Assembly: GCA_944380515.1 (NCBI GenBank)
Contig: CALWHT010000003.1
Span: 1 to 36,752, forward strand
Origin: an uncultured Roseburia sp.
Lineage (GTDB): Bacteria > Bacillota > Clostridia > Lachnospirales > Lachnospiraceae
Direction: 5' to 3'
DNA: 36,752 nt
Part shown: in pieces, positions 17,301-36,752 of the stretch
Numbering within the stretch: position 1 is the first letter of the stretch
Layout: every line of letters begins with the position of its first letter
Translations under genes and position numbers: made by a program
The notes under the pieces: model-generated
What the model saw: only the letters and a program-made list of their open reading frames with translations
The model's database searches: none
Told to the model about the DNA's origin: nothing

Positions 17301-19067
17301 ATGAACTATGCTTATACGAGAAATGAGAAGATTATAAAAAGTAAGACTAAAGAATTTTTGGGCATTGGTTCCGTGGTAACAGCCTCCACTTACCTGGATT
17401 ATGTGATTGACTTCCTGTTGGTAGGAGGCCTTCTGGGGGCGGACGCATTGGCAGCGGCGGGGTTGTGCGACAGCTTTGTCGATATTGCAGAGCTGCCGGG
17501 CTTTGTCATCTCATCAGGCGGGAGTATAGCGGCAGGCATTCTGTTGGGGAAACGGAAGTACGCCCAGGCAAACCGTGTGTTTACGCTTTCCTTTGTGCTG
17601 GCTCTGTTGGGCGGTCTTCTTTGCTGCTGCCTTTTGCCGTTCTGCGATATTTTCGGCAGATTGCTGACAAACAACGGGACAATTGCGAAGGATGTGGCAC
17701 AGTACACTTTTCTGACGATCGCCACCGCGCCCTTCATTGGAATCAATTTGAGTATCTCTGGCTTTGCCATTTTGGATAACCATTCAAAAGTGGCTATGGC
17801 ACAGGTATTGGCTACTAATGTAACGAATCTGGCACTGGACTACCTTTTTATGGGTCCGGTGGGTATGGGAGTGTCCGGAGCTGCTGCTGCCACTCTGGTG
17901 GGAACAGTTGTGGGGATCCTCGTCGGTTTGCGCTACCTGTTGTCATCCAAAAGAACCTTTCGTTTCATTGATTTACGGGGAAATCTGAAAGAGACGGTAA
18001 AGACGATCAGCTCCTCGTCCGGTTCCTTTGTCTTTGATAAAGGCTCCCGGATCGCATCAGGCCTGATAGTCAATGTGGTGCTGGTCTATTTTGTTGGGAA
18101 CATGGGGGTGGCACTGTACGCAATTTTTGGCCGTCTGAAATTCATCATCCGGATCCTCGTGGGCGGGGCTTCAAAGACCATCTCGTCTCTTGGCAGCATC
18201 CTCTACGGCGAGCGGGATTTTTATGGGATTCGTAAGATGATGTCTATCATCTTACGGTATACTTATGTGGTGGTAGCAGCGGTGGCCGTGGTGCTATTCC
18301 TGATTTCAGGACAGTTTTTGCAATTTTTCGGATTAGATGCCGCCGCTCCCGGCACGCATTTGGTAACGGCTTTTCGCCTGATGCTTTTCAGCCTGCCTGT
18401 ATTCTGGATGAATGACCTGCTGGCCATTTATTACCCCTGTGTCCGGAAGCAAAAGCTGTCGATCCTTCTGTTTGCGCTTCAAAACCTGGTGTTTAAGATT
18501 TTGCTCCTTTTGCCCTGCGTGGCGGCCGCCAGCCGGGGATTGGGGCAGATGCCGGCCGTGGCACTCTGGTGCTTGCTGGTGGAGGTGCTGTCGCTGACGG
18601 TAACCTTACTCTGGGAAAAGGTGAAGTATGGGCGGGTTTCCATATTACATGAAGAAGGTGCCGGACACCAGGAATGCCATTTCTTTTCGATTGCCGGGCA
18701 GCCGGAGAGCGTGGCGGATATTCATCAGGAGATCGGACGGTTCTGCCGGGAAAATAATATTCCGCCGAACAAGGGGAATTTGCTTTCTATTGCTTTTGAA
18801 GAGGCTGCGCTGAACATTATAAATCACAATGAAAAAGTAAACAGTATCGACATTTGTCTGCTGCTGGAAAAGGGGGATTTGATTGTGCGGATTCGGGACG
18901 ATGGGGCGCCATTTGACCCGCTGGAATATGAAGACGAACAGGATATTCTATACAGGAACAATATCCGGCTGCTGGAAAAGATTGCTGACAAAAAGGAGTA
19001 TACCCGCATCATGAACATGAATAATACCGTTCTGTCCATAAGACTTCAGGAGCAGGAGAGGGTATGA
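17301..19067 (+). CDS. MATE-family transporter fused to a C-terminal RsbW-like ATPase domain
   Basis: This protein is 588 aa from the ATG at 17301, which has AGGAG upstream; 17274 has no ribosome binding site. Residues 1 to about 445 are a MATE (NorM/DinF-like) multidrug-type exporter with 12 likely helices, including GFAILDNHSKVAMAQVL and GPVGMGVSGAAAATL. Residues 465-582 resemble HATPase_c_2, the fold of anti-sigma kinases such as RsbW and SpoIIAB. Its N box has Glu501 and Asn505 (FEEAALNII) and the G1-like RDDGAPFDP. The second glycine motif is replaced by NNIRLLEK, so catalysis is uncertain. It overlaps the next gene by 4 nt (ATGA). The transported substrate is unknown. Confidence 0.88.
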   Translation: MNYAYTRNEKIIKSKTKEFLGIGSVVTASTYLDYVIDFLLVGGLLGADALAAAGLCDSFVDIAELPGFVISSGGSIAAGILLGKRKYAQANRVFTLSFVLALLGGLLCCCLLPFCDIFGRLLTNNGTIAKDVAQYTFLTIATAPFIGINLSISGFAILDNHSKVAMAQVLATNVTNLALDYLFMGPVGMGVSGAAAATLVGTVVGILVGLRYLLSSKRTFRFIDLRGNLKETVKTISSSSGSFVFDKGSRIASGLIVNVVLVYFVGNMGVALYAIFGRLKFIIRILVGGASKTISSLGSILYGERDFYGIRKMMSIILRYTYVVVAAVAVVLFLISGQFLQFFGLDAAAPGTHLVTAFRLMLFSLPVFWMNDLLAIYYPCVRKQKLSILLFALQNLVFKILLLLPCVAAASRGLGQMPAVALWCLLVEVLSLTVTLLWEKVKYGRVSILHEEGAGHQECHFFSIAGQPESVADIHQEIGRFCRENNIPPNKGNLLSIAFEEAALNIINHNEKVNSIDICLLLEKGDLIVRIRDDGAPFDPLEYEDEQDILYRNNIRLLEKIADKKEYTRIMNMNNTVLSIRLQEQERV

Positions 19068-20422
19068 GCGAGCATCTGACAGCGCTGTGTGAAAAATACC
19101 CGGCGGTGAGGGCGCTGCTTGAGGAGTACGGTGGAGAACCTTTGCGGGTATATCTGGAACAGGCCGTCCACGAACCGCTGCCAAGTATTCTTCCGGCGGA
19201 AGAACTTCTGGAAGAGGTCAGGCACACAGTGGAACCGGTGTTTGGGGAAGAGATGGCAAAAGAGACGGCGGCGTTGATAGAACGGCAGCGTTGCATTTCC
19301 ACAGCCAATCATCACCATATGGCATTTGATTGGCGGATGGTTCAAAGCGTTTTGCTTTATGAGGAGTGGCTTCGGCTGCGTGGGGAGCAGAGAGGCGTGG
19401 TGCCTATATTTGCCACAGCCAATGTGAGCCTGAAAAGCACCGTGTACTCCCGGGGAGTGATCGTATACGACTGTAATCTTCCGGAAAAAATGCTGCGGAT
19501 ACCGGTGTTTCCCCGTTGGAAATCCTGCGTAATGGGTCTGGAGGGTATTGACTGCCAGAGAATTGAAGGCTTTCGGAAATGGCTGTTAAAAGAGAAGAGG
19601 GCTGCCGCCATATCTGACGGAATGTTTGATACCCTGTCTGACTTCTGCGAAGAGGTGTTGGAGAACAAACGAGTGCTCCAATACGGTGATTTTCGGCGGC
19701 AGACCATGGTGATAAACGATTTGCTGTCGCAGAGATATCATTTTGGGCGGAAGGTCCGGCACATCTGGATGGATATGGAAACCATAGCCGCAGGACTGCT
19801 TCTCAAAGATATTCAGCGTGAGAACGCTATCCCGTATCAAATCCTGTTTTGTCAGAAACTTCGGGAGCGCATTCTGGAAAAGCTGGACGGCGTGTCCGGC
19901 TGCTGGACGACACCCGGCGGCGGGACCCATTTCTTCTGGGGCCTGGACAAACGGGCGGTGCGGTTTCCTTTGCGGCTGCAGGAGGAGAGCGGTCAGTGGG
20001 CTCTGACGGGGAAAAATTCGGCTGGGGAGACGGTGCGATTTCCTTTGGAGGCAGATAGTTTGAAAGAAAGTTTAAAAGCCGGAAAGCTGTTCCCGTCTCT
20101 GTTTATCGTTTTTCTGGAACTGTATTTTCTTCGTGATTACACCGTGATGGGCGGACACTTTCAGCCTGCATATCTGCGGGCGATGCGAAAGGGGATGGTG
20201 GAGGCGTTTGAGGAACTGTGCCTTTTTTCTGAGGAAACAGAGATACTCAGACAAAAGGAAAGTCTCACCATACTGGGCATGGCTTATTTGATGAGAGATC
20301 GTGGAAACGGCCAATATTTTGTTTCTACGGCGGAGCTGTGGGAAGAGCCCATTACCCGGGAGGAAATGAGAAATGGACTGGAGACAAGCTTATCGGAAGC
20401 CTACGAGCAGAGCAATTTGTAG
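19064..20422 (+). CDS. Unrecognised 452-aa protein with an HHH motif
   Basis: I do not recognise this family. It is soluble, with no signal peptide or membrane helix, and is well within the codon usage of its neighbours. Features include an N-terminal helical region, STANHHHMAFDWRMVQ with three consecutive His at residues 83-85, a strand-rich central block (PIFATANVSLKSTVYSRGV, then VIVYDCNLPEKMLRIPVFP), and a Gly-rich loop (WTTPGGGTHFFWGL). The conserved-looking His, Asp and Gly clusters suggest an enzyme. It is translationally coupled to the MATE-ATPase gene and precedes a racemase-like gene, so it may act on the same metabolite. Confidence 0.8.
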   Translation: MSEHLTALCEKYPAVRALLEEYGGEPLRVYLEQAVHEPLPSILPAEELLEEVRHTVEPVFGEEMAKETAALIERQRCISTANHHHMAFDWRMVQSVLLYEEWLRLRGEQRGVVPIFATANVSLKSTVYSRGVIVYDCNLPEKMLRIPVFPRWKSCVMGLEGIDCQRIEGFRKWLLKEKRAAAISDGMFDTLSDFCEEVLENKRVLQYGDFRRQTMVINDLLSQRYHFGRKVRHIWMDMETIAAGLLLKDIQRENAIPYQILFCQKLRERILEKLDGVSGCWTTPGGGTHFFWGLDKRAVRFPLRLQEESGQWALTGKNSAGETVRFPLEADSLKESLKAGKLFPSLFIVFLELYFLRDYTVMGGHFQPAYLRAMRKGMVEAFEELCLFSEETEILRQKESLTILGMAYLMRDRGNGQYFVSTAELWEEPITREEMRNGLETSLSEAYEQSNL

Positions 20423-20456
20423 GGAAAGGCAGCTGTTCATATAGAGGTGGATGGAA

Positions 20457-21140
20457 ATGAGTATGCGGAAGAGTCAAAAAATTGCCGTTCTGGCCGGCAC
20501 ATTGGTGGATACCCAGATGGGAATAACATTGCTGGAGAATCATGGTTTGGCAGGCATGGCATTCCCTTTAGCAGAGAATCCCCGCAGGCAGGTGGAGTTC
20601 CAGCTTATGCCCTTGGAAGAGAAACTTGTGGCCGTGCGGATGGTTCTGGCGGCGGCAGTAAAGCAGGGCTGCTATCGTGTGCTGGTGTACTGCAATTCTT
20701 TGTCCGGGTCGGTGGATTTCCAGGCTCTAGAAGCAGAAATGGGATTGCGGATCGTCACTCCGATGGATACGTACCGTGAGATAGCATGGCAATACCAGCG
20801 AATAGGGGTGATCGCCGCCGACGCCCAGGGACTTTCGGGGATTGAACGGATCCTGTATGGGGTCAACCCGGAAATAGAGCTGCTGGAGAGTGGCCTGCTG
20901 ACGGTGGTTGAAGGAATTGAGGCCGGAGAATCTCCCGAAAAACTGGTAGAGCGTTTTCGGCTCACGGAGTTGGCCGCATGGTTCCGGGAATGCGGCGCCC
21001 AGGCCTTGTTGTTAGGCTGCACGCACTTTCCATATTTTAAAGCTGTTCTGGAGAAACGCACGGAGCTGCCTGTCCTGGAACCTTCGGAGAGAATGATTCG
21101 CCTTTTAACAGAGGATTATGACCAAAGCATTATCCGGTAG
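20457..21140 (+). CDS. Asp/Glu-racemase superfamily protein
   Basis: This protein is about 227 aa from the ATG at 20457, which has GAGG at a good distance; ATGs at 20451 and 20463 are alternatives. The two-cysteine architecture of cofactor-independent amino-acid racemases is present: Cys79 in VYCNSLSG and Cys188 in LLGCTHFPYF. The usual N-terminal DSG of MurI glutamate racemases is replaced by LAGTLVDTQMG, so it is not a typical MurI. Interconversion of D- and L-aspartate, glutamate or a related acid is the family expectation. It sits between the unrecognised enzyme and the STAS gene. Confidence 0.8.
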   Translation: MSMRKSQKIAVLAGTLVDTQMGITLLENHGLAGMAFPLAENPRRQVEFQLMPLEEKLVAVRMVLAAAVKQGCYRVLVYCNSLSGSVDFQALEAEMGLRIVTPMDTYREIAWQYQRIGVIAADAQGLSGIERILYGVNPEIELLESGLLTVVEGIEAGESPEKLVERFRLTELAAWFRECGAQALLLGCTHFPYFKAVLEKRTELPVLEPSERMIRLLTEDYDQSIIR

Positions 21141-21229
21141 ACTGGTAGCGGCCGATGCAAACGATACAAGTATTTAATAATGGTAGGCGATGGAAGACAG
21201 TGCCTATATATTTTTAGGAGGTATGGAAC

Positions 21230-21526
21230 ATGAATATTAACAAAGTTGTAGACGGATCGACGCTGCGCATCTCTCTGGAGGGACGGCTGGACACGACAAC
21301 AGCTCCTCAGCTGGAAGCAGAGTTCAAGCAATTCCTGTGCGGAATCACACTGTTAGAGCTGGATTTCGATAAGCTGGAATACCTGTCTTCCGCCGGGCTG
21401 CGGGTTATTCTGGCCGCACAGAAGACAATGAATAAACAGGGGAAAATGGTAATCCGCCATGTCAATGAAACCATTATGGAAGTGTTTGAAGTGACCGGAT
21501 TTATTGATATTCTCACCATCGAATGA
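21230..21526 (+). CDS. STAS-domain anti-anti-sigma-like protein
   Basis: This 98-aa single-domain protein is of the SpoIIAA/RsbV type, which switches binding partners according to serine phosphorylation. It contains the typical LEGRLDTTTAPQLE and, near residue 51, YLSSAGLRVIL, where Ser53 or Ser54 would be the phosphorylated residue. A strong TTAGGAGG precedes the ATG. Its stop overlaps the next gene by 4 nt (ATGA). The neighbouring PP2C phosphatase and transporter-linked ATPase domains are its probable partners; no sigma factor gene is seen in the window. Confidence 0.92.
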   Translation: MNINKVVDGSTLRISLEGRLDTTTAPQLEAEFKQFLCGITLLELDFDKLEYLSSAGLRVILAAQKTMNKQGKMVIRHVNETIMEVFEVTGFIDILTIE

Positions 21527-22926
21527 GGCAGGGAATGAAGCAGGTAGCGAGCATGAAACTGCTGGAGCAGGCAGCACAAGCGGCCAAAGCGGAAAAACAG
21601 CTGGAAGACATCGTCGTTTTACATATCAACCACTGTATGGACAACACCTTTTATTTTAACAATGTGTTGAAAGGTCTGTTCAACCATGTGACGCTTCTGA
21701 CTCCGCCTTATAGCAACCAGGATATCCCTGAAAACTATTCAGGACCATGCTATCACGGTGTGCGGAGGGACGGTGTCTATCACCTGATGAAAAACCGGGT
21801 GGAGTTAAGCTGCGGCAGCACGGAGTTTCTGGAGGCTACCCTGCTCCTGCTGGAGGAGGCTTTCCGCAGGGAACTGATTCCCCTGCTGCGCCAAGGGAAA
21901 AAGCTGTTGATTATTGAGGATGGAGGGTATCATTTTGAAGTGCTGTCCCGGGTGAAGCGGCTGTTCCCGGAGGTGAAGGACAGGATCATCGGCGTAGTGG
22001 AGCAAACTACTTCCGGAACCCGCAGGAGTATGAGTCCGCAAGGGTACCGGTACCCCTATCCTTGTGCCAGCATTGCCCGTTCAGATGTCAAAATGAATGT
22101 AGAATCTATCTTCATCGGGCAGCGGATCGTGGAGGAACTGGGATTGATGCTCTATGCTGCAGATGCATTTTATTCCTTCCACTCCGTACTGCTGGTGGGC
22201 TATGGTGTTGTGGGACGTAGCTGCTGCATGGCGCTGAAAGGGCGTTTCTGCCAGTTGGAGGCCTATGATACGAATCCACGGGTGCTGCAGGTTGCAAAAG
22301 ACGATGGCCTGCGGACTTATTCCCACCCATCCCCGGAGATGTTCTCGGGGGATACCATTGTCATCGGATGCGTGGGCAGGCCCTCCTTTGGAGAAGAACT
22401 GTTCCGTGCTTTTCTTGATGGACAGGGGACAAATCTCTATTTGGCCAGCGGTTCCTCAAAGGATGTGGAATTTTCCTACTTCTGCCGGTATCTGGCGGGA
22501 AAAGAGGCGGAGATTTCCGGTCTTGCACTTGAGGATCAGGAAGCAGCGGAGTGGCATACCTGTTACCGCTTTCGCTATAAAGGAGAAGAAAAGAATATAT
22601 ACTTAACAGCGGAAGGGAAACCGGTGAATTTTTACAGGGGAGGCGTGATCAGCCTGACCTATCGGGTGATTGATCTGGTATTCACAGAGATGCTTCAGAT
22701 GGCGCTGTACCTGTGTCGTAACCGGAATCTCCCTCCCCGGTTGTATGTGCTGGGAGAGGACAACCCCATCACGCGGGCAGTTTCTGAAAAGGAGCTGCTG
22801 GACTTGTGGTTTAAGGAAAATCATCTTTGGTATCAGGGAGAACTGGAAACATTCCTGCAGCCCCATCCTCTTGCCGCTGAGCTTAGGAAGATTGCATGGG
22901 AGAAGGATCATGGAGAAGATTATTAA
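21523..22926 (+). CDS. S-adenosylhomocysteine-hydrolase-like NAD-binding protein
   Basis: This 467-aa protein aligns by eye with S-adenosylhomocysteine hydrolase but is divergent. It has LLIIEDGGY (for DDGGD), GVVEQTTSGTRR (for EETTTGV), the NAD loop VGYGVVGRSCCMALKG and the following acidic strand end EAYDTNP. The catalytic-lysine region reads SDVKMNVES, keeping the Lys and with Glu where the enzyme has Asp. The active-site GHFDVEI region is replaced by GSSKDVEF, losing the His. It may therefore use NAD-dependent redox chemistry on another substrate or only bind an adenosine compound. It overlaps the STAS gene and the second MATE gene. Confidence 0.75.
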   Translation: MRQGMKQVASMKLLEQAAQAAKAEKQLEDIVVLHINHCMDNTFYFNNVLKGLFNHVTLLTPPYSNQDIPENYSGPCYHGVRRDGVYHLMKNRVELSCGSTEFLEATLLLLEEAFRRELIPLLRQGKKLLIIEDGGYHFEVLSRVKRLFPEVKDRIIGVVEQTTSGTRRSMSPQGYRYPYPCASIARSDVKMNVESIFIGQRIVEELGLMLYAADAFYSFHSVLLVGYGVVGRSCCMALKGRFCQLEAYDTNPRVLQVAKDDGLRTYSHPSPEMFSGDTIVIGCVGRPSFGEELFRAFLDGQGTNLYLASGSSKDVEFSYFCRYLAGKEAEISGLALEDQEAAEWHTCYRFRYKGEEKNIYLTAEGKPVNFYRGGVISLTYRVIDLVFTEMLQMALYLCRNRNLPPRLYVLGEDNPITRAVSEKELLDLWFKENHLWYQGELETFLQPHPLAAELRKIAWEKDHGEDY

Positions 22927-24682
22927 ACGGACATTTTTTAAATTTTACGGCCCCACCTTAGTGTCGTCACTGGCGTTGGCCGTTGTCTCTATGACTGATT
23001 TGATTGTGGCCGGCCAGCTTTTGGGCAGCAGCGCATTTACGGCCATCAGCCTTGCGCTGCCGGTGACCATCTTTGTGCAAATCATTGCCGCAATTTTCGG
23101 GAGCGGTGCGGGAATTGTGCTGTCAAACCTTTTAGGACAAGGAGAACGGGAGCGCTGTAATACGGTGTTTACCACGGCGTTTCTCTCGGCAGCGATCACA
23201 GGCGTGATAGCGGGGGTACTGGGATTGCTCTTTTTAAATCCGCTGATTCTGTTGTTAGGCGGCCAGCCCGGCGAAAGCATGCATGACGCACAGCAGTATA
23301 TCGGAATCCTGCTTTTGGGTATGCCGTTTTTGATTTTAGCGCCGGTTCAGCTCACCTTCCTGCGCAATGACAGCAATCCTCGCTACTCTATGTTTTGCGT
23401 GCTGGCGGGAGGTATATGGAACCTGATCGCCAACATTTTTCTGGTGCTTCTGTTTGACCTTGGAATTGCGGGCATTGCCATCGGTACCGTCACTTCCCAA
23501 ATGCTTAGCTGTGTGCTCTCCGGCCTGAAGCTTTGCCGTAAGGAAAGCAGCTTCCATCTGACGAAGAAGCGGTGCTGGTCCTTATCCGCCCTTATGGAGA
23601 TGGCCCGGCCCGGTCTGCCCGCCGCTATGATATTTTTCTTCCAGGTGGTGCTTACGGTGGTGATCAACCATACCCTGGCAGTAACCGGCGGCGACAGCGC
23701 TGTGGGAGTATATGCGGTGGTAAAGTACCTGATTACGTTCCTCTACGCTTTTTATGATGGCGTTACTGGTGCGATCCAGCCTATGTTAGGTGTCTACCGG
23801 GGTGGAGGGGAGATTGATAACCTGCGTCGTACAGTTTCCGTATCTTTTAAGATGATGATTCTGATGTCTGTGATCATCACACTGGTATTGGAATTGGGCG
23901 CCCCGCTGATCTGCATCATTTTCGGTGTAGAGGACAGTATGCTTAATATTATTATGACAGCCATCCGCATTCAGGCGCTGTTCTGCATTACAGCAGGGAT
24001 ACTGGCTTTTTTGGGTGCCTTTTACCGGTGTACCGGCCATGCAGGAGTGGCAATGGTCATTGCTGTGTGCAACAATCTGATTTTTCCGGTATCCATTATC
24101 TTACTTCTGGCGAATTTCACTCCACTTGGCAGTAACAGTGTTTATTGGGGGCTGGTGCTTACGGATTATGCCACTCTGCTGGTCCTGTTCTGCGCTTTGC
24201 GTATCCTGCGCAGGCAGGGTGAGTCTCCGATACTGCTGATCCCCACGCAGGATAATCAGGCCAACGGGTCGGTGTACCAGGTGCTGATTCAGGACAAATA
24301 TGAGGACATTCCCAGAATCTCAGAGGAAATTGACAATTTCTGCGAGGAACATGGCATTCCTATAAAGAAACGCTATTATATTTCACTGTGTATAGAGGAA
24401 CTGGTAGTCAACATTATTCGGTTGGGATTTCGCAAAGAGCAGGATAACTATATCGATATCCGGGTATCGGTGCTGACCGGCCAACAGGTGGCCCTGCGCA
24501 TTCGGGATGATGCGGTGGAGTTTGACCCGACCCAATCTCAGGAGGCGTCGTTGGACGATTTGATGGACGGTTCCTACCAGGAGGATCACAACGAGCTGGG
24601 GCTGCTTCTGGTAAAAAAAGTTGCCAGTTCTTATTCCTATAAGCGCACGGTGGGATTTAATGATTTTATGGTGGTGCTTTAG
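22910..24682 (+). CDS. Second MATE-family transporter with C-terminal RsbW-like ATPase domain
   Basis: This protein of 590 aa starts inside the preceding gene (17-nt overlap) with GAAGGATC upstream of the ATG at 22910. Residues 1 to about 445 are a MATE exporter (FYGPTLVSSLALAVVSMTD, LGIAGIAIGTVTSQML, FYRCTGHAGVAMV). Residues 454-590 are HATPase_c_2-like with N-box Glu497 and Asn501 (EELVVNII), RDDAVEFDP in place of the canonical DxGxG, and a good second glycine motif ELGLLLVKKVAS. It is only distantly similar to the first MATE fusion, with different positions of decay in the ATP site. The two could form a heterodimer or serve different substrates. Confidence 0.88.
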   Translation: MEKIIKRTFFKFYGPTLVSSLALAVVSMTDLIVAGQLLGSSAFTAISLALPVTIFVQIIAAIFGSGAGIVLSNLLGQGERERCNTVFTTAFLSAAITGVIAGVLGLLFLNPLILLLGGQPGESMHDAQQYIGILLLGMPFLILAPVQLTFLRNDSNPRYSMFCVLAGGIWNLIANIFLVLLFDLGIAGIAIGTVTSQMLSCVLSGLKLCRKESSFHLTKKRCWSLSALMEMARPGLPAAMIFFFQVVLTVVINHTLAVTGGDSAVGVYAVVKYLITFLYAFYDGVTGAIQPMLGVYRGGGEIDNLRRTVSVSFKMMILMSVIITLVLELGAPLICIIFGVEDSMLNIIMTAIRIQALFCITAGILAFLGAFYRCTGHAGVAMVIAVCNNLIFPVSIILLLANFTPLGSNSVYWGLVLTDYATLLVLFCALRILRRQGESPILLIPTQDNQANGSVYQVLIQDKYEDIPRISEEIDNFCEEHGIPIKKRYYISLCIEELVVNIIRLGFRKEQDNYIDIRVSVLTGQQVALRIRDDAVEFDPTQSQEASLDDLMDGSYQEDHNELGLLLVKKVASSYSYKRTVGFNDFMVVL

Positions 24683-24709
24683 CATGGCAGCCGGGAAGGA
24701 TGGAAAATT

Positions 24710-27085: not shown

Positions 27086-27103
27086 TGCGAGAAAAAAGGA
27101 AGT

Positions 27104-28868: not shown

Positions 28869-28930
28869 AAATACAATATGATTTTTTTACGCTGTTCCGG
28901 GCAGACGGGATTGTTAGAAAGGGGAAAACT

Positions 28931-30229
28931 TTGCTGTATACAGAGCATTTTGTAATTGAGGGCATCCGCTTTGCAGCATTTGCATTTGTTTGCGGCTGCT
29001 TGCTGCAGCCCCGGTTTAAACGCAGAAATACCATCCTGATTGCCGTCGGATTTTTGGTCGGCATTCTGGGGATTCAGGCCGGTCTTCTTATAGCGGGCCA
29101 TGATGAGACACTTGTACTCACATTGCTGCCATTTACCGCCTATATCCCGGCCATTGTTGGCGTTCATGTGTTGTCGCGTTCCGGCTTTCCGCAGTCGGTT
29201 TCGGTATGGAGCTTCGGCGTGCTGATTAGTTTTCTGCTGCTGTTCTTTCAAAAGTTGCTGGGAACCGCATTTGTCCATACGACTGTGGCAGTATTGCTTG
29301 CAGCTGTGGCATTTTCCGGGGTGGTGTTTTTCTTTCTGCGTCGTCCGTACCGTGCCTATGTGCTGGAGAACCAGAGCGGCTGGCTGCTGATGAGTTTTCC
29401 TGTGGTGATGCTGTTTTTGCTGTTTTCCTACTGTGCCAACATGGTGACGAATCCGATGTTTCTGCTGCTCATCTTTCTGACGGCTCTATCGGTGATTGTC
29501 ACCATAATTTGGGCATTGACTTCTGCCGCTTCTCTCAGGCGGATGAAAGAAAACGAGCGGACGGTAATGATACAGCTGGAAAGCCAACGCAGGGAATATG
29601 AAGACCTTCGCCGGAAAATAGAGCAGGGGCGGAGATATCGCCATGATATGCGTCACCATTTTCGAGTATTGGCGGGGCTGTTTGACGAGGCAAAATCCGT
29701 GGAGGGGTTACAGTACCTCAGCACACTGAACGGGCAGCTTACGGAACTGGAGCAGGAAACCTGCTGTGAAAATGCAACGGTGAATGCCGTGCTCCGCTCC
29801 TATATAGCACGGGCCAGGGAAGAAAATTGTCAGGTTACAGTAAAGGCGGAGGTCCCACAGAACTGTCCGGTAGACGAAATCGACCTGTGCGTAATTTTGG
29901 CCAATGGAATGGAAAATTCGATTAACGCTTGCCGCAGCAATGTGCAGGAAACGGATAAGTGGATCCGGGTAAGCGTGCTGACGCATGAAAATGGCAACCT
30001 GTCTGTTAAAATTGAAAATCCCTTTGATCAACCCGTTATTTTCGGACAAGACGGCTTACCAAAGAGTCAGCTTGGAGAACAGCATGGTATTGGTCTGAAA
30101 AGTGTGGAAGTGGCCGTAAAAAAGTACGACGGCATTTTGCAATGTGAGGAAAATGATGGCGTGTTCAGTCTTCGGGCAGTTCTGTTCAAGCTGACGGATG
30201 TCCGTCATGGAAAAAAAGAAATTGTCTGA
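28931..30229 (+). CDS. AgrC-like GHKL sensor histidine kinase
   Basis: This 432-aa kinase appears to start at TTG (28931) behind AAAGGGG. About six hydrophobic helices fill residues 8-200. A coiled-coil-like linker is followed by the H box YRHDMRHHF with His238, typical of the AgrC/type-10 family that pairs with LytTR regulators. The HATPase_c_5 domain includes ILANGMENSINAC, SVKIENPFD and HGIGLKSVEVAVKKYDG. Signals of such kinases are often peptides, but none is encoded nearby. It overlaps the next gene by about 30 nt and lies two genes upstream of the LytTR regulator. Confidence 0.92.
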   Translation: MLYTEHFVIEGIRFAAFAFVCGCLLQPRFKRRNTILIAVGFLVGILGIQAGLLIAGHDETLVLTLLPFTAYIPAIVGVHVLSRSGFPQSVSVWSFGVLISFLLLFFQKLLGTAFVHTTVAVLLAAVAFSGVVFFFLRRPYRAYVLENQSGWLLMSFPVVMLFLLFSYCANMVTNPMFLLLIFLTALSVIVTIIWALTSAASLRRMKENERTVMIQLESQRREYEDLRRKIEQGRRYRHDMRHHFRVLAGLFDEAKSVEGLQYLSTLNGQLTELEQETCCENATVNAVLRSYIARAREENCQVTVKAEVPQNCPVDEIDLCVILANGMENSINACRSNVQETDKWIRVSVLTHENGNLSVKIENPFDQPVIFGQDGLPKSQLGEQHGIGLKSVEVAVKKYDGILQCEENDGVFSLRAVLFKLTDVRHGKKEIV

Positions 30230-30953
30230 TAAAACGGCGGTTTATCCGCTGATGACGGTACTGCTGGGATTGACTTTTATCAACTGTATGCCAGATGTGG
30301 CGCAAGCGTTGGAGAGAGTACCGGTTCTTGGCTCGGTGATCCGTTTGGTGGATGTACGTACCTATCAACTGGGGTGGGGCGATACGTCGTTTACGGCCGA
30401 GCTGCCGGTATTAGAAACTGCGTCATCTACCGCCGAAATCTCGCCACAGGAACCGTCACAATCCTCTCTCACTACTGAAGAGGCCATAGCTGAGCCGGAG
30501 GCTGCCCAAGAACCGACTACTGAAGCGGAGACATTCCAGTCTTCGCAAGAACCGACTTCTGAAACGGAGACATCCCAGTCTTCGCAAGAACCTGAATCTC
30601 AGCCATCTTCTCCCGTTGAGGAGGTTCCGGAGGAATCCCCACAGGAACCGTCACAATCCTCTCCTGCCACCGAAGAGGCCATAGCTGAGCCGGAGGCTGC
30701 TCAAGAACCGACCTCTGAAACGGAGACATCCCAGTCTTCACAAGAATCTGAATCTCAGTCATCTTCTCCCGTTGAGGAAGTTCCGGAGGAATCCTCACAG
30801 GAACCACCTTCGGATACAGAATCCGACCAGCCGTCTTTTACTGAACCGGTTATACCCAACGTCCCCGCTCCTTCCGATCCGTCCAACGGGGCAGACGATA
30901 TGAACCGGCAGATGGAAGAATATATCGTCAAGGTACGGGAGGCTTTCCTGTAG
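30198..30953 (+). CDS. Membrane-anchored repeat protein: N-terminal part of a split RsiV-like protein
   Basis: This 251-aa frame starts inside the kinase gene (ATG at 30198 or 30207, neither with a strong ribosome binding site). A short cytoplasmic tail and one helix (YPLMTVLLGLTFINC) are followed by ALERVPVLGSVIRLVDVRTY, resembling RsiV-type proteins just outside the membrane. Then comes a long Glu/Ser/Pro/Thr-rich tandem repeat. The frame ends in FL-TAG at 30951, immediately before sequence that continues the RsiV/DUF3298 similarity in the same frame. The cytoplasmic tail is too short for a classical anti-sigma domain. Confidence 0.75.
   Translation: MSVMEKKKLSDKTAVYPLMTVLLGLTFINCMPDVAQALERVPVLGSVIRLVDVRTYQLGWGDTSFTAELPVLETASSTAEISPQEPSQSSLTTEEAIAEPEAAQEPTTEAETFQSSQEPTSETETSQSSQEPESQPSSPVEEVPEESPQEPSQSSPATEEAIAEPEAAQEPTSETETSQSSQESESQSSSPVEEVPEESSQEPPSDTESDQPSFTEPVIPNVPAPSDPSNGADDMNRQMEEYIVKVREAFL
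30446..30830 (+). repeat. Tandem 195-bp / 156-bp coding repeats with 39-bp subunits
   Basis: ACAGGAACC recurs at 30446, 30641 and 30797. The first unit is 195 bp (65 codons) and the second 156 bp, shorter by 39 bp. That is one copy of a 13-codon subunit, which occurs twice in the first unit (EPTTEAETFQSSQ, EPTSETETSQSSQ). All lengths are multiples of three. They encode a flexible acidic stalk. Confidence 0.85.
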
Positions 30954-30956
30954 TAT

Positions 30957-31439
30957 GTGGCGCGGAAATATCAGGGCTATGTAGCGTCTGATACAGATTA
31001 TTATGTACTGCGTGATGACGATGAGATGCTGTCGCTGTGTTTTTACACGACCATCAATGCCGGTGGCTCAGGGGAGTACAGCCGGTGCTTCACCCTGTAC
31101 AAGCGGACAGGGCCGGTGCTCAAACTGTCGGATCTGTTTACGAAGGGCAGCGATTATGTAGGGGTTATTAGCGCCGATATCCTATCGCAGATGACCGAAC
31201 AGGTTGATGCTGGTGAAGGCGATTACTTTATACCCGGCGGCATTTGGTCGGAGGAAGAATGTTTTCAATCCATTGATGCCGATCAGAATTTCTATCTGGA
31301 TGAGGACAACCAATTGGTCATTCTTTTTGACGAATATGAGGTGGCGCCGGGATCTATGGGGATGCCGCGCTTTGTGATTGATGATCAGGTAATATCGGGA
31401 ATACTGGCGCCATGGATGGAGGACATGCAGGCGGAGTGA
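30957..31439 (+). CDS. RsiV/DUF3298-like extracellular domain, separated from its N terminus by TAG
   Basis: This 160-aa segment starts at a possible GTG (30957), three bases past the TAG that ends the preceding frame and in the same frame. It carries DUF3298-family features: YYVLRDDDEMLSLCFYTT, GPVLKLSDLFTKGSDYVGVI, NFYLDEDNQLVILFDEYE and VAPGSMGMPRFVI. In RsiV this region binds lysozyme. Alone it has no signal peptide or good ribosome binding site (a GGGAGG lies 14 nt upstream). It is either expressed by readthrough or reinitiation, or is the 3' part of a gene broken by a single CAG-to-TAG-type change. Confidence 0.65.
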   Translation: MARKYQGYVASDTDYYVLRDDDEMLSLCFYTTINAGGSGEYSRCFTLYKRTGPVLKLSDLFTKGSDYVGVISADILSQMTEQVDAGEGDYFIPGGIWSEEECFQSIDADQNFYLDEDNQLVILFDEYEVAPGSMGMPRFVIDDQVISGILAPWMEDMQAE

Positions 31440-31449
31440 GGTGAGAGGT

Positions 31450-32172
31450 ATGCTGCGCATAGGGATATGTGACGATAAACAAGAGGATATCGACTGGATC
31501 AAAGGCCTGGCCGATCGCTTTTCAGCGGATCATCCGGAGATGCCTGTGCAGATACAGGTCTATGACTTGCCATATGACCTGCTGGATGATATTGAAAAAA
31601 CGGGCGGATTTGATTTGTACCTGCTGGATGTCATTATGCCTCACATGACCGGCTTGGATCTGGCCAGACGGATCCGGGAGCGAAAAGAGCGGGCGGAGAT
31701 TCTGTTTCTGACCGTTTCCAGGGAATATGCGGTGGATGCTTTCAGCGTGAAGGCATCCGGCTATCTGATAAAGCCGGTGAAAAAATCGGATTTTGACGAG
31801 GCAGTGCTTGACTGTATCCGCCGACTGTCGCCGGAGGGAAGGCCGGCTCTTATACTGAAATTGAAAGATGGTTTTCAACGCGTACCGCTCCATGAACTGG
31901 TGTATATTGAGAGCTTTAATCATAACCAGGTCTGTACCCTGTCCGACGGTTCTGTGCTGGAAACGGCAGTTACCCTGTCGAAATTGATGAAGGAGCTGAA
32001 GGAGCACCCTGCATTTATCCGCCCCCACAGGGCGTATATTGTCAACATGGAATTTATCCGTAAACTGACCGGTTATGAGTTGCTGCTTACTAATGGTAAA
32101 CGCATTCCAGTTCCCCAGAGCGGATACGGAAAGCTGAAAAATGCCTATCTTACCTATATGACCCGTACATAA
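31450..32172 (+). CDS. LytTR-family response regulator
   Basis: This transcription regulator is about 240 aa from the ATG at 31450, preceded by GAGTGAGGTGAGAGGT; a GTG at 31441 is an alternative. The receiver domain has CDDKQED, the phospho-acceptor Asp60 in YLLDVIMP, LTVS and YLIKPVKKSDFD. The LytTR DNA-binding domain has VPLHELVYIESFNHNQV, FIRPHRAYIVNMEFI and GKRIPVPQSGYGKLKNAYL. LytTR proteins bind pairs of short direct repeats spaced about 21 bp, and such pairs occur upstream of blocks A and C. It is the third gene of the kinase operon. Confidence 0.94.
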   Translation: MLRIGICDDKQEDIDWIKGLADRFSADHPEMPVQIQVYDLPYDLLDDIEKTGGFDLYLLDVIMPHMTGLDLARRIRERKERAEILFLTVSREYAVDAFSVKASGYLIKPVKKSDFDEAVLDCIRRLSPEGRPALILKLKDGFQRVPLHELVYIESFNHNQVCTLSDGSVLETAVTLSKLMKELKEHPAFIRPHRAYIVNMEFIRKLTGYELLLTNGKRIPVPQSGYGKLKNAYLTYMTRT

Positions 32173-32187
32173 AAATTTGAACTGTCA

Positions 32188-32252: not shown

Positions 32253-32281
32253 AACAAAAATAGAAAGGACGAGTAACAGCG

Positions 32282-33004
32282 ATGAAAAGACCGCGAATTT
32301 TGACGCTCGCTCTGGCGGCTTTGCTGCTGACGATATTAGCCGGATGCAAGGAAGCCGCTCCTGACAATAACGCACTGTGGAAGGCCGCAATGACAGATGC
32401 AGTGCTCAGCGATGATGAGGAAATACGTGAACTGGTGACGCTGACAAAAGAAGATGACCGGGTTGTATGGGATGAAGCGGGAGAACGGGTGCTGCTGCTG
32501 AGCTGGCATGACTATGACGATGCTTGTGCGCCCGGCGACTCCATCCGAACAGAATACGGGGATATCTGGGCCACATCCATTGGAGAAATGCAGGCGTGGT
32601 ATGCACAAAATTGCGACGAAGTGGAAGATTGGGAACTGCGGTTCGCACAGCTTTTGGGGGTTCACGAGGACGAGGGTTATACCCGCTTCACTGCGTTCTG
32701 GGTTTTCCCGGAGGACGTGATACGTCCGGCCTATGTCACTGATGTAACAAAACAGATGGAAAACGATTATGCGGTTGTGACGGATGAAGCATATAAAGAA
32801 TGGTTTGATAGCAATATCCTCTGGTCCTATTTTGAGAATGATTATCCCTGGACGCGGCTCGGATATACCTATGACTGGAGCGGCGGGAAATCGGAATACG
32901 GGCTGACCGAGTTTTTGGTTTTTGACGGCGGTAAAACAGAGATTGCCTTTACCTGTACCACTGCAGAATTTGTGGATTGGCTGGAAGAACACACGAAAAC
33001 ATAG
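32282..33004 (+). CDS. Hypothetical lipoprotein
   Basis: This 240-aa protein has a clear lipoprotein signal (MKRPRILTLALAALLLTILAG then Cys22 in LAGC). The mature part is rich in Asp, Glu, Trp and Tyr, with YDDACAPGDSIRTEYGDIWA, NCDEVEDWELRFAQLLG and YPWTRLGYTYDWS. I recognise no domain. It is the first gene of block C, 23 nt after the probable transcription start, and is followed by the DUF6485 gene. As a surface protein in an operon of two transporters it could bind substrate or regulate the sensor; this is a guess from position. Confidence 0.85.
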   Translation: MKRPRILTLALAALLLTILAGCKEAAPDNNALWKAAMTDAVLSDDEEIRELVTLTKEDDRVVWDEAGERVLLLSWHDYDDACAPGDSIRTEYGDIWATSIGEMQAWYAQNCDEVEDWELRFAQLLGVHEDEGYTRFTAFWVFPEDVIRPAYVTDVTKQMENDYAVVTDEAYKEWFDSNILWSYFENDYPWTRLGYTYDWSGGKSEYGLTEFLVFDGGKTEIAFTCTTAEFVDWLEEHTKT

Positions 33005-33032
33005 CGTATAATTGAAAAAGGAGAAATGAACT

Positions 33033-33230
33033 ATGGAGAACAAATGCGATAACAATAGGAACTGTCCCTGCACCTATGACTGCCCGCGGCACGGCAAATG
33101 CTGCGCCTGCGTGGCTCATCACCGTGACCACAACGAAGGAGTACCGGGCTGCTTCTTTTCCAAAGAGGCGGAAGCGACGTATGACCGGAGTATCGAGGCG
33201 CTGGCCAGGGATCATGGAATTATCAAATAG
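33033..33230 (+). CDS. Small Cys-rich DUF6485 protein
   Basis: This 65-aa protein begins MENKCDNNRNCPCTYDCPRH and contains GKCCACVAHH and VPGCFFSKEAEATYDRS. The eight cysteines and several histidines suggest metal binding. It fits the small DUF6485 family that is common in Clostridia, with unknown function. AAAGGAG precedes the ATG. The next gene starts 13 nt after its stop. Confidence 0.82.
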   Translation: MENKCDNNRNCPCTYDCPRHGKCCACVAHHRDHNEGVPGCFFSKEAEATYDRSIEALARDHGIIK

Positions 33231-33243
33231 GAAGTCATGCGGA

Positions 33244-34857
33244 ATGGAATGTAAAAGAGGGAAACTGGCCAAGCGCATAAAGCTGGTGACGCTGAACGCT
33301 GAAGGAATCGATCGTATTTCTGACCTGATTACGGAAGCGCTGACTGAGGCGGGAACGGATCGAAGAGACGTCATCCGTTTGCGTCTGGCCATCGAAGACA
33401 TTCTGATGCAGTGGTTCGATGTGTTGGGGGCGGACACGCACTGTATCTTCCGGTGCGGTTCCCGTTTGGGACGTATGTACATAGAAATTCTGGTCTCCGG
33501 AGAACGTTGTGATCCTGGAGAAACCGAGGAGGAAACGGGCGGGTTGCTGTATTCCAATCTGCTGGCGGAGGCAGGACTTTCACCGGTGTACAGCTACAGG
33601 GAGGGCCGGAATCGCCTGGCATTGTATTTGCCAAAGCCGCAGCGGATGAATCCGATGATACAACTCATTCTGGCGATGGCGGCGGCCGTATTGTGTGGTG
33701 CTCTCTGCCAGTTCCTCCCGCGGACGTTTCAAGCGGCGGCAGACGCTGTGGCAGAGCCGCTCTTTACTGCGCTGATGGGAATGATACAGGCATTGGCTGG
33801 TCCGATGATCTTTTTAAGCGTTTGCTGGGGAATCGTATGCATCGGCGATGTTCAAGTACTGGGCCGGATTGGACGGACGGTCATTTCGCGCTTCGTAACC
33901 GGCGTTTATCTGACAGCGGGGATTTCGGCCTTGTGTCTGGTCTGGTTGTTTCGTCCGGGTAATGGAACGGCTGTGGAAGGAGAAAACGCAGCTTCTCAAA
34001 TTTACAGCATGGTTCTGGGCATCATCCCCGACAATATCCTTTCTCCATTTCTGGAAGGAAACTCTCTGCAGATTATTTTTATGGCTGTCTGTGCAGGGCT
34101 GGTGCTGCTGCTTCTCAAGGAAAAGCTGCCGGCTCTCCATGCACTGGTAGAACAGATGAATACCGCTGTCCAGTTCATGATGGAGACTGTGAGCCGCTAC
34201 ATACCGGTCTTTACCTTTATCAGTCTCTTTACCTTAATATTATCAAACAACTTGAGTGGACTGAGTGGCGTTGCAAAGGGGCTCCTGCTGGCCGTGGCTG
34301 CCTGTATCCTTTGGCCGCTGATTTATGCACTGGCGGCGGCTCTGCGGTTAAAGGTATCCTATCCCCTGTTGCTGCGCAAGCTGCTTCCCACCTATTTGAT
34401 CGCACTGGCCACGGCGTCATCCTCTGCGGCGCTATCTACAAATCTGGATACCTGTGAAAATAAGCTGGGCATTTCCGAGCGCGTCAGCCGGTTTGCCGTG
34501 CCATTGGGACAGGTGATTTTTAAAACCGGAGGCGCAGTGGGTTTCTTCGTTCTGGCCATGGGGTTAGCGGAGTATTATGACGTGACCATGTCCATACTCT
34601 GGGTTGTCACAGGAGTGTTAACGGCCGGGTTGTTGGCCATTGCGACTCCGCCGGTTCCCGGTGGCAGCTTGACCTGTTACACTGTGCTGCTCGCTCAGCT
34701 GGGGATTCCTGAGGAGGCGGTCGCCCTGGCTATTGCAGGAAATGTGATACTGGATTTCTTTATGACATCCTGCGGGATATCCTGTCTGCAGTCGGAGCTG
34801 CTGCTGGCGTCAAACCGGCTGGGACTTTTAGATAAAGACAGGCTGGAAAAGTCTTAA
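33244..34857 (+). CDS. SLC1-family (dicarboxylate/amino-acid:cation) symporter with N-terminal ATPase-like domain
   Basis: This protein is about 537 aa from the ATG at 33244, preceded by AGGAAG; 33214 is an alternative. Residues 10-130 resemble HATPase_c_2 (NAEGIDRISDLITEALTEA, RLRLAIEDILMQW), but the N-box Asn is Met55 and no glycine motif is seen, so it is probably a non-catalytic binding domain. Residues 135-530 are a DAACS/SLC1 transporter with ILGIIPDNILSPFLEGN, the Ser-rich hairpin ATASSSAALSTNLDTCENK and TPPVPGGSLTC. NMDGT is replaced by FKTGG, and the DRFRT segment by LDFFMTSC, losing the Arg that binds acidic side chains in characterised homologues. The substrate may therefore differ from glutamate or aspartate. 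Confidence 0.85.
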   Translation: MECKRGKLAKRIKLVTLNAEGIDRISDLITEALTEAGTDRRDVIRLRLAIEDILMQWFDVLGADTHCIFRCGSRLGRMYIEILVSGERCDPGETEEETGGLLYSNLLAEAGLSPVYSYREGRNRLALYLPKPQRMNPMIQLILAMAAAVLCGALCQFLPRTFQAAADAVAEPLFTALMGMIQALAGPMIFLSVCWGIVCIGDVQVLGRIGRTVISRFVTGVYLTAGISALCLVWLFRPGNGTAVEGENAASQIYSMVLGIIPDNILSPFLEGNSLQIIFMAVCAGLVLLLLKEKLPALHALVEQMNTAVQFMMETVSRYIPVFTFISLFTLILSNNLSGLSGVAKGLLLAVAACILWPLIYALAAALRLKVSYPLLLRKLLPTYLIALATASSSAALSTNLDTCENKLGISERVSRFAVPLGQVIFKTGGAVGFFVLAMGLAEYYDVTMSILWVVTGVLTAGLLAIATPPVPGGSLTCYTVLLAQLGIPEEAVALAIAGNVILDFFMTSCGISCLQSELLLASNRLGLLDKDRLEKS

Positions 34858-34956
34858 GCCTTGTCGACCATGTTTTTAAAAATGAGCAGGGCGTAGCTCG
34901 GAAGCAAGCAGAAAGATAATCTTGTATCTAAAAATATTATACGAGGAGGAGACGAT

Positions 34957-36752
34957 ATGAAACGAACCGGAACGGCGGGACGCCGTCTCTGTGCAGTTTG
35001 GTTGCTGAGTATCCTGTGTATACTTCTGAGCGGCTGTAATACGGCGGAAACAGAAGCTATTACAAGTATTCGGCAGTTGGACGGACAAGCCATTGGTGTG
35101 ATGACAGGATCCAGTTTTGACGTTCATACTGACAATCTGATCCAAGATGCGGACAAGCAGTACTATGACCGGGTGCCGGATCTGGCACTGGCAGTGGAAC
35201 AGGAGAAAATCGCGGGCTTTTTGATTGACGAGCCAATTGCCCGCGTCTTATGTCAGGAAAATCAGGCGGTGACCTATCTTTCCGATGTGCTGGTGGAGGA
35301 AAGCTATGCCGCCGCCTTTTCCAAGACGGAACGCGGCGCGGCGCTGCGGGACGAATATAATGAATACTTGGCGCAGATCCGGGCGGACGGCACACTGGAA
35401 GAAATTGATGAGATCTGGCTGGGTGCAGACGAAAGCAAAAAAAACGTGGAGGATTGGACATCCTTTCCTGCCGAAAACGGCGTCATCCGGATGGCGGTGA
35501 AAACCGATGTGGCGCCCTTCAGCTATATCAAGGACGATCAAATCGTCGGATATGATATTGATATCATGGTTCGTTTCTGCAAAGCTTATGGCTACGGGTT
35601 GGAAATAATCAGTACGGAGATCACTTCCATTTTCGCGGGTCTTGCCACCGGGACATACGATGTATCGGCCGCTGGCCTGACCGTAACGGAGGAACGTGCG
35701 GAAAGCGTAAACTTTTCCGAACCCAATTACACCGGCGGTATTGTAGCGGTTGTGGCGAACGCCGGACAGAATTCGGTCCGTTTCCAGACGCTGCAGGATT
35801 TTGCCGGAAGCACGGTGGGGGCGGTGACGGGTACTATCCTTGACCAGCTTGTGAGCGGCGTTGTCAGCGGCTGTGAATTTCAGTATTATGATGATTTTTC
35901 CGCTTTGCTTCTGGCGCTGCAGTCGGGTACGCTGGATGCCGTGGTTACTGATATGCCCATTGCCCAGCTGGCAGTTGCGAGGCAGCCGGATCTGATGATA
36001 TTCCCTGAAACGGTGGCTCCCGACAGTTACGGCCTGGGACTGCAAAAAAACAGCCCGCTGACAGAACAGGTGAGCGCCATTATTCAGAGATATACGGAGG
36101 ATGGGACGCTGGACGCTCTGCGGCAGAAATGGCTGGGCGCCGACGAAAGTGTGAAAACCATTGACATAGGAGAATATGATGCGCCCAACGGTGTGCTGCG
36201 GTATGCGCATGACTCCACGCTAGAGCCCATGAGCTATGTGAGCGGCAGCGGCGAGTCGCTGGGATTTGAGGTAGAACTGGTGGCGCTCATCGCAAAAGAA
36301 TTGGGGATGGAGTTGGAAATTACACAATCCACCTTTAATGCGCTGATCACCATGCTGGGGAGCGGCAGAGCGGACATTGTGTCCGGCTCCATCAGCATCA
36401 CTGAGGAACGGAAAGAAAGCATTGATTTTGCCGACACTCATTATATCGGCGGCACAGTGCTGGTGGTACGGGCTGAAGATTTAGGACAGGGCTTTGCGGA
36501 TGCGGACGCTGAAACAAGCTTCTGGCAAGGACTGGCCGATAGTTTTTATAAGAACTTTATAGAGGAAGACCGATGGAAAATGATTCTGTCCGGCCTGGGC
36601 GTCACCTTTGTGATCTCGGCGTTTTCTGCCTTGTTTGGCACTGTCTTGGGCTTTGGGCTTTGTCTTCTGCGCCGCAGCCGAAACCGTGTTGTTTCCAAAG
36701 TGACCGCGGTTTTTAACCGCCTCATTCAGGGCATCCCTGTGCTGGTGCTGCT
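34957..36752 (+). CDS. Polar amino-acid ABC transporter: tandem substrate-binding segments fused to permease (3' end missing)
   Basis: The frame is open from ATG 34957 (GAGGAGGAGACGAT upstream) to the window edge, 598 codons. A lipoprotein-like signal ends at Cys27 (LLSGC). Three SBP_bac_3-related segments follow. Segment 1 (about 40-160) looks like lobe 2 only (LDGQAIGVMTGSSFD to LEEIDEIWLGADES). Segment 2 (about 170-398) is complete. Segment 3 (about 410-505) has lobe 1 only. Near residue 541 a HisM/GlnP-type permease begins (LSGLGVTFVISAFSALFGTVLG, then GIPVLVLL). Amino-acid import is expected. An ATP-binding partner should lie just outside the window. Confidence 0.88.
   Translation, partial: MKRTGTAGRRLCAVWLLSILCILLSGCNTAETEAITSIRQLDGQAIGVMTGSSFDVHTDNLIQDADKQYYDRVPDLALAVEQEKIAGFLIDEPIARVLCQENQAVTYLSDVLVEESYAAAFSKTERGAALRDEYNEYLAQIRADGTLEEIDEIWLGADESKKNVEDWTSFPAENGVIRMAVKTDVAPFSYIKDDQIVGYDIDIMVRFCKAYGYGLEIISTEITSIFAGLATGTYDVSAAGLTVTEERAESVNFSEPNYTGGIVAVVANAGQNSVRFQTLQDFAGSTVGAVTGTILDQLVSGVVSGCEFQYYDDFSALLLALQSGTLDAVVTDMPIAQLAVARQPDLMIFPETVAPDSYGLGLQKNSPLTEQVSAIIQRYTEDGTLDALRQKWLGADESVKTIDIGEYDAPNGVLRYAHDSTLEPMSYVSGSGESLGFEVELVALIAKELGMELEITQSTFNALITMLGSGRADIVSGSISITEERKESIDFADTHYIGGTVLVVRAEDLGQGFADADAETSFWQGLADSFYKNFIEEDRWKMILSGLGVTFVISAFSALFGTVLGFGLCLLRRSRNRVVSKVTAVFNRLIQGIPVLVL

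Follow-up and report, generated by a model that had tools for sequence, protein, structure and literature searches.

RsbW-like domains fused to transporters in a Lachnospiraceae contig: a candidate partner-switching module with transport as its output

The stretch analyzed here (the window) is the whole of contig C3 (CALWHT010000003.1; 36,752 bases) from the genome of an uncultured Roseburia sp., which comprises 3.07 Mb in 66 contigs. A run of eight genes on the + strand (17274 to 28786, intergenic gaps of -17 to 89 bases) encodes, in order, a MATE exporter with an RsbW-like HATPase domain (MATE1), a 452-amino-acid orphan protein, a racemase-like protein, a STAS protein, a 467-amino-acid protein weakly resembling AdoHcyase, a second MATE exporter with an HATPase domain (MATE2), a membrane phosphatase, and a 5'-nucleotidase-like protein. 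Downstream of this run are a GHKL/LytTR block (28931 to 32172), one small gene, an SLC1/SDF symporter gene, and an open reading frame (ORF) for an amino-acid ATP-binding cassette (ABC) transporter that is cut by the contig end (Table 1). Partner switching, in which a kinase, a STAS protein, and a phosphatase act together, is a textbook mode of control of sigma factors. Judging from sequence comparisons, we consider it fairly probable that this island is a partner-switching module that has transport and not transcription as its output, with the transporter-borne domains serving as docking sites for the STAS protein.

Table 1. Positions of the predicted features of the island in the window
Feature	Position	Strand	Basis
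MATE1, exporter with C-terminal RsbW-like (HATPase_c_2) domain at ~18696-19004	17274-19067	+	Pfam
452-amino-acid protein, family unknown; 4-base overlap with MATE1	19064-20422	+	No Pfam or NCBIfam match
Asp/Glu racemase-like protein	20451-21140	+	Pfam PF01177, E 1.3e-7, 32.1 bits (cut-off 31)
STAS protein (SpoIIAA/RsbV type); presumed phospho-acceptor Ser at codon 54 (21389-21391)	21230-21526	+	Pfam, TIGR00377
467-amino-acid protein, weakly AdoHcyase-like	21523-22926	+	NCBIfam, below cut-offs
MATE2, exporter with C-terminal RsbW-like domain at ~24296-24652	22910-24682	+	Pfam; Gly of G1 replaced by Ala
Membrane phosphatase: QueT/ECF-S-like part, HAMP-like stretch, SpoIIE-type PP2C domain (26096-26671), intact RsbW-like domain (26714-27076)	24710-27085	+	Pfam
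5'-nucleotidase-like phosphoesterase, 18 bases 3' of the phosphatase gene	27104-28786	+	Pfam/NCBIfam level match
SLC1/SDF symporter with degenerate N-terminal RsbW-like domain at ~33256-33660	33214-34857	+	Pfam SDF, local profile, hhalign, model
Amino-acid-type ABC transporter ORF, cut off by the contig end (solute-binding part and start of membrane part)	34957-36752	+	Pfam

Domains of the island

The original prediction placed four RsbW-like domains in the island, at the C termini of both MATE exporters and of the phosphatase and at the N terminus of the symporter, and all four are present. Pfam recognizes three of them as HATPase_c_2 (cut-off, 27.4 bits), namely, those on MATE1 (E 4.9e-8, 33.5 bits), on the frame holding MATE2 (E 4.7e-15, 56.1 bits), and on the phosphatase (E 3.9e-19, 69.4 bits), which bears out the HATPase-like nature of these tails. 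The exporters themselves match MatE (PF01554; cut-off, 24.9 bits) with 77.1 and 115.1 bits, and the frame at 33076 to 34857 matches SDF (PF00375; cut-off, 27.9 bits) with 214.8 bits and hence belongs to the SLC1/SDF family. The start of MATE2 is probably at 22910 and that of the SDF protein probably at 33214 or 33244. Pfam has no match in the N-terminal domain of the SDF protein, and we considered that this stretch might not be RsbW-like at all; profile and structure comparisons ruled this out. The domain was recovered by a local profile (4e-5) and aligned to ten phosphatase-linked domains with an hhalign probability of 93.9. Furthermore, an AlphaFold2 model of it, built with four sequences in the alignment (mean predicted local distance difference test [pLDDT] score, 81.9; predicted template modeling score, 0.76), has UsfX (Foldseek E 2.7e-6), RsbW, and SpoIIAB as its best matches in the PDB.

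The four domains are present, yet they are not equivalent. Every motif checked is kept by the phosphatase-fused domain alone, whose N and G1 boxes are intact. The MATE1 tail also has intact N and G1 boxes, minus the GxG lid glycines; the MATE2 tail has Ala in place of the Gly of G1; and the SDF domain has lost the Asn of the N box and the Asp of G1.

Both a SpoIIAA/RsbV-like STAS protein and a PP2C phosphatase had been predicted in the same island, and Pfam matches both. The STAS protein (Pfam E 3.9e-12) scores 60.4 bits with TIGR00377, over the cut-off of 53.45, and its Ser54, which we equated with Ser56 of RsbV by motif alignment, is present in 42/42 STAS sequences aligned. At E <= 0.01 the genome has two STAS matches, the one in the window and a SpoIIAA-like one on contig C29 that adjoins an HATPase and a sigma match. 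The SpoIIE/PP2C domain of the phosphatase is recognized with 178.1 bits (PF07228; E 2.4e-52; cut-off, 25 bits). By the TIGR02865 equivalog cut-off the protein is not the sporulation phosphatase SpoIIE (38.5 versus 490.8 bits); another SpoIIE-family gene of the genome is on contig C50. For the membrane part, Pfam gives QueT just at its cut-off (33.7 bits), and the HAMP-like stretch scores 22.3 bits, under the cut-off of 25. The model of the membrane part is poor (pLDDT 60.3), with ECF S-components as best matches at E 0.09 or worse, and a sensor role is for this reason a lead only; from its likeness to QueT and these weak ECF S matches, this part may bind a small molecule.

The island had also been described as lacking a sigma factor and a free anti-sigma kinase. 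Insofar as this concerns Sigma70_r2 domains (the only sigma type sought), none of the 13 matches in the genome is on the window contig, which ends at 36752, and no free kinase is present in the window. An intact kinase-type domain is, however, carried by the phosphatase.

Recurrence and linkage across genomes

The phosphatase was surveyed in 299 genomes of the family, representing 298 genera (E <= 1e-60; up to three candidates scored per genome), and was found in 89 of them. A MATE-HATPase profile built from 11 proteins (A1; up to four candidates scored per genome) gave at least 77 matches spanning both parts, in at least 45 of the same genomes. Among the matches listed, the phosphatase is present in 43 of the 45 genomes with a MATE fusion versus 46 of the 254 others (Fisher p 1.7e-24). 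For the symporters we used a profile of six proteins (A6), counting as fusions those matches that start in the N-terminal domain and keeping plain symporters separate, with a contig-edge match in genome G309 counted as plain. All 23 genomes with an SLC1 fusion have the phosphatase versus 11 of the 55 with plain SLC1 only (p 8e-12). The fusions thus recur over genera, those listed nearly always in genomes that have the phosphatase, and fused transporters with neither a STAS nor a PP2C gene close by could be served in trans. Of the 61 other genomes of the window's genus, one has a fusion recognized by MATE2 alone as query (E <= 1e-40). Distant fusions would escape this query, but the window's version is rare within its genus. 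No near match to 17274 to 27085 was found in plasmids.

Gene linkage was examined for the 75 listed fusions outside the window. Nine of these are seeds of A1, and 65 of the remaining 66 were fetched, in 60 stretches of up to 19.5 kb. A PP2C or STAS gene is located within 8 kb of 25/65 fused MATE genes versus 0/21 plain MATE controls (p 2.5e-4), the latter being taken from near the top of a PF01554 list and covering 20 stretches in eight of these genomes. The counts are lowered by stretches that stop at contig ends, and the ranking favors relatives of linked fusions, since A1 was built from these. In addition, the best 80 of the 578 phosphatase loci confirmed from a scan with the phosphatase alignment contain a MATE-HATPase gene in 24 cases, a STAS gene in 56, and both in 16; in 17 cases among them, the MATE-HATPase gene is <1 kb upstream of the phosphatase gene on the same strand. 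Loci with a MATE-HATPase gene come from records titled Oscillospiraceae, Lachnospiraceae, and Blautia schinkii DSM 10518, a cultured strain (L188), and phosphatase loci without such a gene also come from bins titled Treponema and Synergistaceae. At locus L153, genes for SDF, ABC-HATPase, STAS, MATE-HATPase (in two frames), and phosphatase proteins follow one another on one strand, which ties the SDF and ABC genes of the window to the circuit.

The truncated ORF at 34957 probably encodes the N-terminal half of an ABC transporter whose own RsbW-like tail would be a fifth such domain. A second copy in the genome, on contig C53 (L233), consists of an SDF-HATPase gene followed by a gene for a 1145-amino-acid protein that combines a solute-binding protein (SBP), a permease, and an ABC ATPase with an HATPase-like tail (local profile, 4e-8). 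The C53 copy is 82% identical in DNA to window positions 33162 to 34851 and 84% identical to positions 34944 to 36752, so that this one genome has two SDF-HATPase and SBP-ABC pairs with 82 to 84% identity (L233 80 to 5109 and window 33162 to 36752). The start of C53 and the end of C3 both fall within this repeat, which probably explains why the ORF is cut. In L197, L188, and L153, a single protein of 1137 to 1164 amino acids has the SBP, permease, and ABC ATPase parts by Pfam. Pfam finds no HATPase in the last ~120 residues of these proteins; a local profile matches their tails with 2e-8, 7e-12, and 1e-6, and the ABC tail aligns to the phosphatase-linked domains, in its C-terminal half only, with an hhalign probability of 90.5. 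HATPase_c_2 matches that are weak and below the cut-off were obtained for two shorter ABC ATPases that carry such tails (L065, 0.0058; L160, 9.8e-6).

Similar domains were seen on other proteins. An EamA-type transporter (Pfam) in L160 (6419 to 8221, + strand), from a further transporter superfamily, has an HATPase-like C-terminal domain by local profile only. AMP-binding adenylating enzymes encoded near STAS and phosphatase genes in L041 (12216 to 14321, - strand) and L193 (5099 to 7309, + strand) have a C-terminal RsbW-like domain with HATPase_c_2 below the Pfam cut-off, and such enzymes may be targets besides transporters. STAS domains fused to APH-like kinases are encoded beside the phosphatase in L034 (9743 to 10924), L036 (12016 to 13230), L051 (1 to 1458), and L200 (2506 to 4251), one of the four also having an HD domain and one an HATPase domain; these could form a second branch of the circuit. 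In L033 (3848 to 8077, + strand), genes for STAS and the phosphatase-kinase flank one for a nonribosomal peptide synthetase with condensation, adenylation, carrier, and reductase domains, and a MATE gene that has no recognized tail follows.

Among the remaining genes of the run, the 467-amino-acid gene is kept beside STAS and MATE-HATPase genes in L197 and L188, and its product has a ratio of nonsynonymous to synonymous substitution rates (dN/dS) of 0.077 versus L197. The 5'-nucleotidase-like gene adjoins the 3' side of the phosphatase gene in L197 as well. The 452-amino-acid protein had no relatives in the 199 other family genomes and 61 genus genomes searched, nor a match in a pattern-based contig scan, which reaches close relatives only; as this gene gave no relatives as the first query, the phosphatase and MATE proteins were used as queries instead. 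The racemase-like, 452-amino-acid, and 467-amino-acid proteins together suggest the synthesis and export of a small compound, which may derive from an amino acid, with uptake by the SLC1 and ABC transporters as part of the same scheme. Promoter-like sites (21 versus 19.0) and terminator-like sites (23 versus 20.2) are about as frequent as in shuffled sequence. The GHKL/LytTR genes were considered as members of the circuit and left out for want of linkage evidence. Within that block, positions 30198 to 30953 encode a repetitive protein rich in Ser, Thr, Pro, and Glu. Its gene is flanked by those for a GHKL histidine kinase and a DUF3298 protein, the latter followed by a LytTR regulator gene.

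Docking sites or kinases

To compare the domains, we scored four nucleotide-site residues, the Glu and Asn of the N box and the Asp and Gly of the G1 box, in a first set of loci (L033 to L132 and the window) and in a second set (L153 to L232) that may share species with the first. In the first set, all four residues are kept in 17/17 phosphatase-fused domains and 18/19 free domains (the exception being a frame cut by the end of its stretch), in 7/37 MATE tails whose stretch also holds PP2C or STAS and 8/39 whose stretch does not, in 0/3 SDF domains, and in 1/5 others, a STAS-bearing protein of L073 without a recognized transporter domain. Phosphatase-fused and free domains taken together thus differ clearly from MATE tails (35/36 versus 15/76; p 5e-16). 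The second set gave the same picture (71/72 versus 1/24; p 7e-20), with 0/2 SDF domains and 0/6 others (ABC, EamA, and AMP-binding tails) keeping all four. The Glu of the N box is nevertheless retained in 76/76 and 24/24 MATE tails. In RsbW, Glu49 directly contacts Ser56 of RsbV, the residue that RsbW phosphorylates (PMC7340262). We presume that the N-box Glu is the counterpart of Glu49. Lone MATE tails, with neither STAS nor PP2C in the stretch, have the N-box Asn in 31/39 cases and Cys in place of the G1 Gly in 22/39 and are perhaps a separate subfamily.

The altered domains appear to be maintained. Compared with L197, dN/dS is 0.084 for the MATE2 tail versus 0.087 for the membrane part, and it is 0.083 for the ABC tail (C53 copy versus L197), all values being rough at a dS of ~1 or more. 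The notion that these tails are decaying, useless remnants is ruled out for MATE2 and the ABC tail by values near 0.08. Given the loss of nucleotide-site residues together with purifying selection, most tails look like maintained pseudo-kinases, and because most of the transporter-fused domains examined have lost nucleotide-site residues, a docking role fits better than a kinase role.

The original prediction had left open whether the transporter domains themselves phosphorylate the STAS protein. If they did, the transporters could be sensors whose flux alters kinase activity, with the state of the STAS protein reporting elsewhere. The MATE1 tail, which retains E, N, D, G, and P so that a kinase role of this one copy is possible, and the 15/76 and 1/24 MATE tails with all four residues are in line with this. 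Most tails have lost at least one residue, however, including every SLC1 domain and every ABC, EamA, and AMP-binding tail scored in the second set; moreover, the phosphatase already bears an intact kinase-like domain, and the operon has no other evident output gene. We consider this alternative unlikely.

As GHKL-type domains can dimerize and bind nucleotide, the tails could instead be nucleotide sensors or dimerization domains that report the energy state and have nothing to do with STAS. RsbW itself dimerizes (PMC7340262). The 40/65 fused MATE genes away from STAS and PP2C genes, and the N-box Asn kept in many lone tails, speak for this view. Nevertheless, this leaves the genome-level co-occurrence with the phosphatase and the gene linkage unaccounted for, and the tails retain the Glu that would face the STAS serine although they have lost nucleotide-site residues; this explanation appears to us improbable. 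A third possibility, very improbable in our view, is that the transporters are passengers and the target is a sigma factor encoded elsewhere, reached for instance through cross-talk with SpoIIAB and sigma F. In its favor are the SpoIIAA/SpoIIAB/sigma-like trio on C29 and the 13 Sigma70_r2 matches of the genome; against it, none of the latter is on the window contig, and the RsbW-like domains are physically fused to transporters and under purifying selection.

We thus return to the reading of the transporter-borne domains as docking sites, in which the PP2C domain of the membrane phosphatase would dephosphorylate the STAS protein and the intact RsbW-like domain on the same protein would be the kinase that phosphorylates it. 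With a kinase-type and a PP2C domain on one protein, the phosphatase protein could set the phosphorylation state of STAS alone, and its ECF-S-like membrane part may sense a small ligand that tips the balance between the two activities. Unphosphorylated STAS would dock on the RsbW-like domains of the MATE, SLC1, and ABC transporters, phosphorylated STAS would not, and docking would open or close the transporter. What the sequences show is the domains, their fusion to transporters, the recurrence and co-occurrence of the fusions, the loss of nucleotide-site residues, and purifying selection; that STAS binds the tails, which domains act as kinase and as phosphatase, and which way docking gates transport are inferred. 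The recurrence of the fusions across genera, in genomes with the phosphatase and in some cases beside STAS or PP2C genes, supports the earlier suggestion that transporters are the likely outputs of the switch.

Several observations weigh against this reading. Fusion genomes G014 and G273 have no phosphatase match at the threshold, and the co-occurrence statistics treat genomes as independent, uncorrected for relatedness. No PP2C or STAS gene is found within 8 kb in the fetched stretch of 40/65 fused MATE genes, and 2/9 plain MATE genes inside fused-gene stretches, which did not enter the control, have one within that distance. The MATE1 tail still has E, N, D, G, and P, and in the SDF domain of the window, Asp replaces the Glu and Gln the Asn. 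The dN/dS of this SDF domain is 0.25 versus 0.11 for the body of the protein (window versus C53 copy). Finally, a mirror-tree comparison of STAS and MATE tails over 30 loci gave a weak partial r of 0.16 (p 0.047) given the membrane part and 0.13 (p 0.018) given PP2C, the link between STAS and PP2C being far stronger (0.65).

More tentatively, degenerate RsbW-like pseudo-kinases could be a general clip-on domain that turns MATE, SLC1, amino-acid ABC, and EamA transporters and adenylating enzymes into direct STAS targets, forming a network for the post-translational control of transport in anaerobic gut Clostridia run by membrane-sensor phosphatase-kinases; we hold this wider proposal to be possible. 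If true, many transporters would be set at once, in a fast and reversible manner and without new transcription, and the system would show a kinase evolving into a receiver of its own substrate. The fusions span numerous genera of a single family and occur in Clostridia from gut and rumen, among them the cultured B. schinkii DSM 10518, so that these proposals are directly testable.

Comparison with known systems

The claim that no system of this form has been described agrees with our searches, in which RsbW-like domains fused to MATE or SLC1 transporters were not found among the titles and abstracts listed for open-licence PMC articles, a scope that leaves out most subscription papers. Similarly, the MATE-HATPase profile (584 positions) matches 23 solved sequences, and in no case does the best stretch go past position 451 and so reach the tail. 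The individual parts are familiar. In common with the SigB/RsbU-RsbV-RsbW and SpoIIE-SpoIIAA-SpoIIAB systems, the island has a STAS protein with a conserved Ser, a PP2C phosphatase, and an HATPase_c_2 kinase-type domain. It differs from them in that no sigma factor is encoded alongside, the kinase-type domain is on the phosphatase, and extra, mostly degenerate copies are on transporters.

Two further comparisons concern STAS domains and transport. MlaB binds the ABC ATPase directly, and MlaFB is not known to include an RsbW-like domain or a PP2C. The island is thus set apart from MlaFB, in which the STAS protein contacts the ABC ATPase itself, by its RsbW-like domains and PP2C. The regulation of a transporter by a STAS protein, which is presumed for the island, has a precedent in MlaFB (PMC7367683). 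In SLC26/SulP transporters with STAS tails, with which a review on STAS-only proteins deals where it speaks of transporters (PMC8256260), a domain of the partner-switching type is likewise fused to a transporter; there it is the STAS side that is fused, whereas in the island it is the kinase side, with STAS as a separate protein.

The closest precedent is SiaABCD of Pseudomonas aeruginosa, in which a phosphatase and a kinase control a STAS-like protein that acts on a non-sigma effector: unphosphorylated SiaC binds and directly activates a diguanylate cyclase (PMC8457831). Here and in relatives, a candidate non-sigma effector is similarly encoded with the module, in the form of the RsbW-fused transporters. 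The two differ in that the effector of SiaABCD is a diguanylate cyclase bound at its stalk, whereas the presumed effectors of the island are transporters with an RsbW-like domain. Taken together, the parts of this module are known, and what is apparently new is transport as the output and the docking domains fused to the transporters.

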